Assembly (NCBI GenBank): GCA_001029295.1
Contig: LDXJ01000053.1
Location: forward strand, 1-64,000
Length of the DNA: 64,000 nucleotides
DNA from: Peptococcaceae bacterium CEB3
GTDB taxonomy: Bacteria > Bacillota > Desulfitobacteriia > Desulfitobacteriales > Desulfitobacteriaceae
Reading direction: 5' to 3'
This document shows positions 40,254 through 62,767 of this stretch, one piece after another. Each line of letters starts with the position of its first letter. Position 1 is the first letter of the stretch. The notes under the pieces are model-generated. The model saw only the letters and a list, made by a program, of their open reading frames with translations. It was not told the DNA's origin and made no database searches. Position numbers and translations under genes: made by a program.

Positions 40254-40340
40254 TGGTGCCGAAGGCCGGGGTCGAACCGGCACGGTCGTGAAACCATCGG
40301 TTTTTGAGACCGACGCGTCTGCCAATTCCGCCACTTCGGC
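40254..40340 (-). tRNA. tRNA-Leu (CAA anticodon)
   Basis: The 87-nt gene begins GCCGAAGTGGCGGAATTGGC, has a 7-bp acceptor stem GCCGAAG/CTTCGGC, an anticodon loop CTCAAAA giving CAA, a long variable arm (GATGGTTTCACGACCGTG), the T-loop GGTTCGACCCC and an encoded CCA end. It stands alone between hicBA and accA. Confidence 0.95.
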
Positions 40341-60344: not shown

Positions 60345-61283
60345 TTAGTAGCCTTTGCTCAAATCAATCCGATTTACCATGCGCCCAAACTCGGGATAGA
60401 CGCTTAGGTTTTTGAGAAAAATCGCAAAGGTTCTCTGGTTGTAATGGGGTGAGCGGCCGCCAATGTGGGGCGTCACTACCACGTTGGGCAGAGTCCAGAA
60501 AGGGCTCTCCGCCGGCAAAGGCTCCTGCCTGAACACATCGAGAGCGGCGGCCCCTACGCGGCCCTCCCGCAGGGCGGCTAGAAGCGCCGGTTCGTCCACG
60601 ACCGGTCCCCGAGCCACATTAATAAAATACGAACCCTTTTTCATGGCCCGAAACCGCTGAGCATTGAAAAAGCCAACCGTGACCGGAGTGAGAGGCAGGA
60701 GGACAACCACCACGTCAGTCATAGCCAAAAAATCCTCCAGAGCCGCCAAATTTCCCACTCGGTCATAGGCCGGATGACTGGCACCACTGTGGGAAATGCC
60801 CAAAACCGTCATGCCAAAAGCCCGGCACTTCTCCGCGACCGCTTCGCCGATGCGCCCCGCCCCGACAATACAGACGGTCTTGGCATAGAGCTCCTCCAGC
60901 ATAACAGCGGAGTCCCAAACCTTTTTTTCCTGCTGCCGCATGAAAACCTGAGCCTGGCGAAAAAGCGTGAGTATGCTCCACATGATGTGCTCCGTCATTT
61001 GAATCTGGTGCGCCCCCCGGGCGTTAGTCAGGGTAATGCCCCGTTCCGCCAACGCCGGCAGCGGATAATTATCCACTCCCGCCGACATGGCCTGAATCCA
61101 ACGCAAGCGGGGAAAGCGGGCAAGATTTTCCGCCGTAACCTCCGGTCCGAAGGTCACGAGAATCTCCGCCTTTTCGTCCGGTACATTCAGTTCTCGGACA
61201 TAAACGTATTCGGCATCTTTGACAATGTTTTGAACCGCTGCTCTCCGCTCCTCTTTGATCGGCAGAGTACTCAAAATCCTCAA
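60345..61283 (-). CDS. D-isomer-specific 2-hydroxyacid dehydrogenase
   Basis: The 312-residue NAD-dependent enzyme has a nucleotide-binding GAGRIGEAVAEKC motif and the catalytic triad as Arg in NVARGPVVDE, Glu in DVFRQEPLP and His in TPHIGG. The TTG at 61283 is preferred, with GGGGTGGAG 6 nt upstream; the longer frame to 61361 has a non-homologous start. Substrate is not evident. A structured RNA candidate lies 140 bp upstream on the same strand. Confidence 0.85.
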   Translation of the reverse strand: MRILSTLPIKEERRAAVQNIVKDAEYVYVRELNVPDEKAEILVTFGPEVTAENLARFPRLRWIQAMSAGVDNYPLPALAERGITLTNARGAHQIQMTEHIMWSILTLFRQAQVFMRQQEKKVWDSAVMLEELYAKTVCIVGAGRIGEAVAEKCRAFGMTVLGISHSGASHPAYDRVGNLAALEDFLAMTDVVVVLLPLTPVTVGFFNAQRFRAMKKGSYFINVARGPVVDEPALLAALREGRVGAAALDVFRQEPLPAESPFWTLPNVVVTPHIGGRSPHYNQRTFAIFLKNLSVYPEFGRMVNRIDLSKGY

Positions 61284-61421
61284 CTTATTCTCCACCCCTC
61301 TCGGCGCATCAAACTTTCCCGGCGATTTTAAACCTCCGTGACTTAACCTCCGGCGAATCAAACCCCTGCAAATTAAATCCCCTTATGATTATGACCAAAA
61401 CTCAAGGTCTTGACCCTTCCC

Positions 61422-61632
61422 CCCTGACTGAAGTCGACTGCAGTGGTAAGATTCCAGGCGGCTTCCGAGGGCCCGACTTTTGTCTGGGGTACGCGAGAAC
61501 TGAAGTAATTGAGCCATAGGCTCCACTGCCGATTCCGTATATTACCCAGTCCAAAAGACAAGACCGGCGGGATCGTGCCTCATCCGCTTAACCCCATAGG
61601 CTAAGCAGACGCCTCGCCGTCACCAGCCAGGG
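61422..61632 (-). ncRNA. Candidate structured RNA, class unknown
   Basis: On the bottom strand a 9-bp closing helix pairs CCCUGGCUG (61624-61632) with CAGUCAGGG (61422-61430). Inside, GACGGCG (61615-61621) pairs with CGCCGGUC (61562-61569), enclosing an 8-bp hairpin UCUGCUUA/UAAGCGGA (61602-61609, 61583-61590). CUUUUGGACUGGGUA (61543-61557) pairs with UACCCCAGACAAAAG (61477-61491), enclosing a GAGCC-UAU-GGCUC hairpin (61511-61523). An overlapping 62-codon frame is probably an artefact. Lineage and size fit raiA-type RNAs, unproven. Confidence 0.6.
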
Positions 61633-61648
61633 CTTAGATGGGTTCAGT

Positions 61649-62767
61649 TTATGATTTAAGATTCTCTGGGTTTAGGCCCTCCAGCTCTTTCAAGACAAAG
61701 CGCCCGTCCTTACGCACCAGAACATCGTCGAAATAAATCTCGCCCCCGCCGTATTCGGGCCGCTGGATGCAGACGAGATCCCAGTGAATGGCGGATTTAT
61801 TGCCGTTATCACAATCGTCATAACAAGATCCCGGTGTGAAATGAAAGCTCCCGTCTATTTTTTCGTCAAATAAGGTATCTTTCATAGGCGTCTGGATATA
61901 AGGATTGACTCCCAACGCGAATTCTCCCACATAGCGGGCGCCTTCATCCGTATTAAACACCGCTTCCACCCGCTCCGTGTCATTGGCTGTCGCGCGCACG
62001 ATCTTGCCCTTTTCAAAGTGGAGAACGATGTTTTCATAGGTGAACCCTTGGAAAACGGCCGGCGTGTTGTACGAAATGACGCCATTGACCGACTCTTTCA
62101 CAGGTGCAGAGAAAATCTCGCCATCCGGAATATTCAGATGCCCGTCACATTTTATCGCCGGCAGGCCCTTGATGGAAAAGGAAAGATCCGTCCCGGGCCC
62201 GACGAGGTGCACCCGGTCCGTACGTTCCATTAACTCCTTCAACGGGTCCATGGCCCTGGACATCAAACTGTAGTCCAGATTGCAAACGTCAAAGTAAAAA
62301 TCCTCGAACCCCTCGATACTCATATTTGAGAGCTGAGCCATGGAGGCATTGGGGTAACGTAAAATACACCAGTGAGTCCGCGGCACTCTTTGATCCAAGT
62401 GCACCGGTTTGGAATAATGGGATTGGTAAATTCTCAGCTTTTCGCTGGGAACATCCGCCCATTCGTTGACATTTTCTCCCGAACGCACCCCGATATAAGC
62501 CTGCATCTCTTTCATCCGGGCCAAATCCCAACGGGTCATCGCCTCAGCCTGCTCCACGGTCAAGCCCTTCAGTATTTCGCGCGTTAGGGTATGATCACTG
62601 ATGGAGAGAAAAGGAACCCCTCCCGCCTGGTAGGCTGAGCGTATCAAGGCTTGAGCCAAGGGAAGTTCCAAACCGATGACTTCGATCAAAATCTTGTCCC
62701 CCGGCTGAAGCCTGACCGCATAGTTGATCAGGGTATCCGCCAGTTTTTCCACACGTGGGTCTTTCAT
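61649..62767 (-). CDS. M29-family aminopeptidase
   Basis: The 372-residue metallopeptidase has PGDKILIEVIG at the start, the metal-site Glu in EGARYVGEFALG, HWDLVCIQ with the ligand His and Asp, and GGGEIYFDDVLVRKDGRF at the end, as in AmpS/AmpT/PepS. It removes N-terminal residues from cytosolic peptides. GGAAG precedes its ATG. It is single, upstream of the structured RNA candidate. Confidence 0.88.
   Translation of the reverse strand: MKDPRVEKLADTLINYAVRLQPGDKILIEVIGLELPLAQALIRSAYQAGGVPFLSISDHTLTREILKGLTVEQAEAMTRWDLARMKEMQAYIGVRSGENVNEWADVPSEKLRIYQSHYSKPVHLDQRVPRTHWCILRYPNASMAQLSNMSIEGFEDFYFDVCNLDYSLMSRAMDPLKELMERTDRVHLVGPGTDLSFSIKGLPAIKCDGHLNIPDGEIFSAPVKESVNGVISYNTPAVFQGFTYENIVLHFEKGKIVRATANDTERVEAVFNTDEGARYVGEFALGVNPYIQTPMKDTLFDEKIDGSFHFTPGSCYDDCDNGNKSAIHWDLVCIQRPEYGGGEIYFDDVLVRKDGRFVLKELEGLNPENLKS

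Follow-up and report, generated by a model that had tools for sequence, protein, structure and literature searches.

ISDra2, an IS200/IS605 element of Deinococcus radiodurans, is the best point of comparison for the RNA described here. The guide of the ISDra2 reRNA is drawn from the DNA that flanks the right end (RE) of the element (PMC8612924), and in the ISDra2 ωRNA bases -5 to -3 pair with bases -103 to -105 (UUC with GAA) as a pseudoknot (PMC10097598). A second precedent is the RAGATH-18-derived reRNA of IS607 TnpB, a structured RNA first detected computationally and later recognized as a TnpB guide scaffold, located downstream of, and outside, the coding sequence (PMC11061315). We analyzed a 64,000-nucleotide stretch of Peptococcaceae bacterium CEB3 (contig LDXJ01000053.1; hereafter the window), in which one intergenic feature is very probably an orphan ωRNA relic: the right end of an IS200/IS605 element whose TnpB subfamily occurs in Bacillota, left behind with neither tnpA nor tnpB in the gap between an aminopeptidase gene and a gene for a 2-hydroxyacid dehydrogenase (Table 1). 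As in ISDra2 (PMC8612924, PMC10097598), the family has an RE-derived RNA behind tnpB, a putative guide in the flanking DNA, pre-guide bases predicted to pair into a pseudoknot, and complete elements with a Y1 tnpA. It differs from ISDra2 in sequence and TnpB subfamily and has a larger 5' domain (H1 and H2); the ISDra2 RNA overlaps the tnpB 3' end, whereas the modelled part of the RNA begins here at or after the stop codon, and the window copy lacks both tnpA and tnpB. The RAGATH-18 reRNA belongs to IS607-type elements, while tnpA is here of the Y1/IS200 type and such an Rfam match is absent.

The original prediction, made from the sequence alone, was that of a structured RNA, and the minus strand of 61422-61632 indeed folded at -86.7 kcal/mol (z -2.74; equalled by 2 of 200 shuffles). 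The fold of the plus strand at 61400-61650 was unremarkable (z -0.23). From the homology described below, the real extent of the structured RNA is ~61410-61636 on the minus strand. A 62-codon frame (61373-61561) overlaps the element and shows no gene-like signs, in keeping with its earlier dismissal as an artefact. The failure to fit listed riboswitches or Rfam families was likewise reproduced: scanning against Rfam 15 gave no gathering-level match, and at a lax E-value only chance-level matches appeared (best E 1.9), the raiA motif not being among them. Orthologues of the upstream gene were present in 20 of 21 searched family genomes. For the downstream ORF all NCBIfam scores were below the cut-offs, the best match being NF041369 (E 1.4e-64).

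Table 1. Features of the ωRNA locus in the window (all on the minus strand).
Feature	Position	Strand	Basis or remark
Aminopeptidase-like gene, upstream of the ωRNA element	61649..62767	-	ORF; name taken from the original prediction, no NCBIfam match
D-2-hydroxyacid dehydrogenase-like gene, downstream of the ωRNA element	60345..61361	-	ORF; NCBIfam matches below their cut-offs
Solo right end (RE, ωRNA scaffold) of an IS200/IS605-TnpB element, without tnpA/tnpB	61410..61636	-	Homology to tnpB-linked copies
5' domain hairpin H1, GUGA loop	61613..61630	-	3 of 7 pairs changed on both sides; 98% of cells paired
Long hairpin H2 (the first apical hairpin of the original prediction)	61581..61611	-	Conserved, compensatory changes
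Central arm, including the second apical hairpin (61511-61524)	61479..61555	-	Helices 5-8; 88-100% of cells paired, several two-sided changes
RE terminal hairpin region, doubled GACTtCAGTC unit, ends in GGGTCAA	61410..61449	-	Aligned to the RE ends of relatives (GGTTCAA)
Flanking DNA, putative guide (20 nt shown)	61390..61409	-	Deduced from the RE boundary and the ISDra2 reRNA (PMC8612924); length by analogy
GATCC, 5' strand of guide-proximal pairing (GAACC in relatives)	61570..61574	-	Pairs with 61412-61416
GGGTC, 3' strand of guide-proximal pairing	61412..61416	-	Pairs with 61570-61574

Besides the window copy, a DNA search for further copies detected four fragments in the same genome, which vary in size and lack tnpB, and three copies in Acididesulfobacillus acetoxydans, a species of the same genus, with 77-78% identity to the window copy. 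All three A. acetoxydans copies were located behind tnpB or tnpB remnants, the RNA following an ORF that ends in CPTCGVKDVNADYIGSLGIGRNFRKKWLA, which is the TnpB zinc ribbon. At L006 and L009 the RNA directly followed tnpB, and at L068 an almost full tnpB carried a late frame break. The scaffold ended at an identical point in L006, L008 and L009, after which the flanks varied. The reverse of the window case was seen at another A. acetoxydans locus (L074, 329-683), where a 3' part of tnpB (114 aa) is followed by no more of the RNA than its first ~30 bases.

The placement of the window feature between two co-directed genes, and the lack of an Rfam match, could also suggest a cis-regulatory or free-standing ncRNA that belongs to the aminopeptidase locus and is unrelated to the transposon family. 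We regard this as extremely improbable, since all other full-length copies found are situated behind tnpB or a tnpB remnant and the sister species lacks the element in its orthologous gap. Specifically, this A. acetoxydans gap, whose flanks are 90-92% identical, measures 82 bases against 313 in the window; the remaining gap has diverged such that a clean empty site is unreadable. The insertion is therefore not common to the sister species. The free-standing RNA of ~210 nt that had been implied gives way to the right end of an IS605/TnpB transposon that bears an ωRNA.

Next to these close copies, a wider family of tnpB-linked relatives was found with a covariance model (R1) that was built from four sequences, namely the window copy and the three A. 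acetoxydans copies. Over 46 family genomes, R1 matched only in the window genome and in A. acetoxydans. The model was also run against tnpB loci gathered by searching the phylum, a search that yielded the closer TnpBs, and here it matched behind an open tnpB of ~440 aa in four more genomes (L104, L105, L106/L111 and L107; E 4e-11 to 7e-15). The RNA lies directly behind tnpB at L104, L106/L111 and L107, and other sequence intervenes at L105. This intervening sequence (L105, 2740-3000) resembles an RE from another IS605-type element (CCCTACACCTTTAGGTGTAGGGAGGAAGTCAC). The TnpB proteins of L104 and L106 are 59-64% identical to the A. acetoxydans proteins. One genome contains both L106 and L111, 2,147-bp elements that share 99.95% identity and each consist of tnpA (Y1), tnpB and the RNA. 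Both RNAs terminate in GGTTCAA; the bases thereafter, which would form the guide, differ between the copies. The L106 transposase matched Y1_Tnp (E 2.9e-43) and transpos_IS200 (157.5 bits), and palindromes are present at both the left end (LE) and the RE of L106; no such transposase is present at the window copy.

The partner proteins have the features of guided TnpB nucleases. The PF07282 zinc ribbon scored above its cut-off, and the RuvC D and E positions are kept in L017, L067 and L068. NCBIfam guided_TnpB (cut-off 100) gave 102.4 bits for L106 and 102.8 bits for L017, and the broken L068 fell below with 93.7 bits. In the window's own genome, L017 (469-1758) is an open 429-aa TnpB that is followed by a strongly diverged member of the RNA family (weak R1 match, 28 bits); modelling of the RNA from L017 alone was dropped because its sequence is too divergent. 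An ORF read by eye as resembling a tyrosine recombinase (L017, 1953-3185) follows this divergent RNA. The left ends of complete relatives have a common TTGAAGAAAAT and the same GACTTCAGTC palindrome, and this left-end sequence suggests a TTGA-type TAM for the element family. An IS608-like TTAC target was rejected, as the left ends of complete relatives have TTGAAG in common instead. No relatives were obtained from plasmid and phage collections by DNA search, from viral contigs by protein and pattern search, or from plasmids by protein search at E 1e-40, and searching the classes of two relatives yielded no further copies.

Conservation of the structure was assessed on a model-free MAFFT alignment of 8 sequences, the available set being small (8-9 sequences in two main groups plus L017). 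RNAalifold predicted 71 pairs on this alignment, 21 of them with two-sided changes. A 65-pair structure, which consists of the R1 structure carried over plus two 3' hairpins, had 92.1% of cells in standard pairs, as compared to 27.5-45.7% when the partners were slid. None of 500 shuffles reached the observed values for cells paired, two-sided cells or the covariation score, although the number of two-sided pairs was reached by 33 and the number of pair types by 316 of the 500, such that two of the five measures did not clearly exceed the shuffles. On the model-fitted alignment all five measures were above every shuffle. Both apical hairpins that had been proposed, the first (GCUUAGCCUAUGGGGUUAAGC, 61586-61606) and the second (GGAGCCUAUGGCUC, 61511-61524) with the helices beneath it, are kept in homologues with compensatory changes. 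The closing helix, by contrast, did not hold: in the single-sequence fold it joins 61623-61632 with 61422-61431, and its 3' strand is entirely contained in the RE-hairpin stretch that is missing from all 7 aligned homologues. In the conserved fold the 5' domain is closed locally (GCC/GGC, 61631-61633 with 61577-61579). The earlier reading would have been refuted by a lack of covariation or of homologues, but both were found. It thus stands as far as a structured RNA with covariation is concerned, while its closing helix and its free-standing RNA do not, and it missed the identity of the RNA.

Folding could in principle matter only as single-stranded DNA recognized by a Y1 transposase, which would make the feature a non-autonomous DNA element rather than an RNA. 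The RE palindrome, the TCAA end, the differently sized fragments without tnpB and the presence of Y1 transposases in the same genome are in line with this. However, the covariation spans ~200 nt, far past the terminal palindrome, and many of the conserved pairs are G-U, an abundance that suits RNA. Moreover, a left end was not found on the window copy, and the best Y1 transposase of the genome is just 46% identical to that of L106. We therefore consider a DNA-only role highly improbable.

Further agreement with an ωRNA comes from the bases that immediately precede the putative guide. A guide-proximal pairing is predicted as GAACC/GGUUC in 7 sequences and as GAUCC/GGGUC in the window copy, which thus retains the pairing through a two-sided change from A-U to U-G. 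In the model, this pairing matches the pseudoknot of the ISDra2 ωRNA (PMC10097598) as its counterpart. Homology, the tnpB-adjacent position, complete elements, an RNA end beyond which the flanks vary, the strong covariation of the fold and a pairing of the ISDra2 type all support the ωRNA identity. By analogy with ISDra2, the RNA behind tnpB in complete elements would be expected to bind TnpB, and the bases past GGTTCAA would guide TnpB to cleave the empty donor site, an activity that helps the transposon to persist. A functional RNA would extend from the right end into the flanking DNA.

As for the state of the window copy, 59 of 65 pairs are kept and 6 are broken, and the RE hairpin is enlarged. 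Compared with L006, 15% of its stem positions are changed, against 29% of the positions outside the stems. It retains more pairs than expected for random placement of changes (P ~0.005), although this selection signal mixes the periods before and after tnpB loss and cannot be assigned to the latter. There is no tnpB beside it. The genome contains many TnpB-type genes, which belong to several subfamilies (26 PF07282 matches, 25 above the cut-off), and these data, together with an ωRNA homology that begins only 12 nt past the end of the aminopeptidase ORF, would allow for a retained, working ωRNA: the aminopeptidase mRNA would carry it as its 3' tail, and another TnpB encoded in the same genome would use it in trans. 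We found no promoter-like site across 61280-61760, so any transcript of the window ωRNA is probably read-through from the upstream gene. Nevertheless, such use in trans seems very unlikely to us: the nearest TnpB of the genome, L017, is only 41-44% identical to the A. acetoxydans protein and has its own, very different ωRNA, and the window copy is absent from the sister species. Because the search of the own draft genome (98.5% complete, such that a cognate tnpB could be missing) turned up neither a close TnpB nor a close TnpA, we infer that the window copy is a relic, inactive or at best trans-acting.

The window RNA is thus of a known kind, a transposon guide RNA, and not a new RNA class. 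What had been an unexplained fold is now an identified ωRNA outside Rfam; its model is backed by covariation, its ends are defined, and several Bacillota have the matching TnpB subfamily. In genome scans, tnpB-free ωRNAs of this type can be mistaken for novel intergenic ncRNAs. If use in trans were real after all, a foreign TnpB would receive a fixed guide whenever a housekeeping gene was transcribed.

Two minor observations concern the window and its RE hairpin. The sole tRNA gene in the window is tRNA-Leu(CAA) (40254-40340, minus strand). In three copies that come from two species (window 61410-61449, L005 ~1500-1530 and L010 ~1500-1540) the RE hairpin unit GACTtCAGTC occurs twice, and this doubling may be the mark of a sub-branch of the element.
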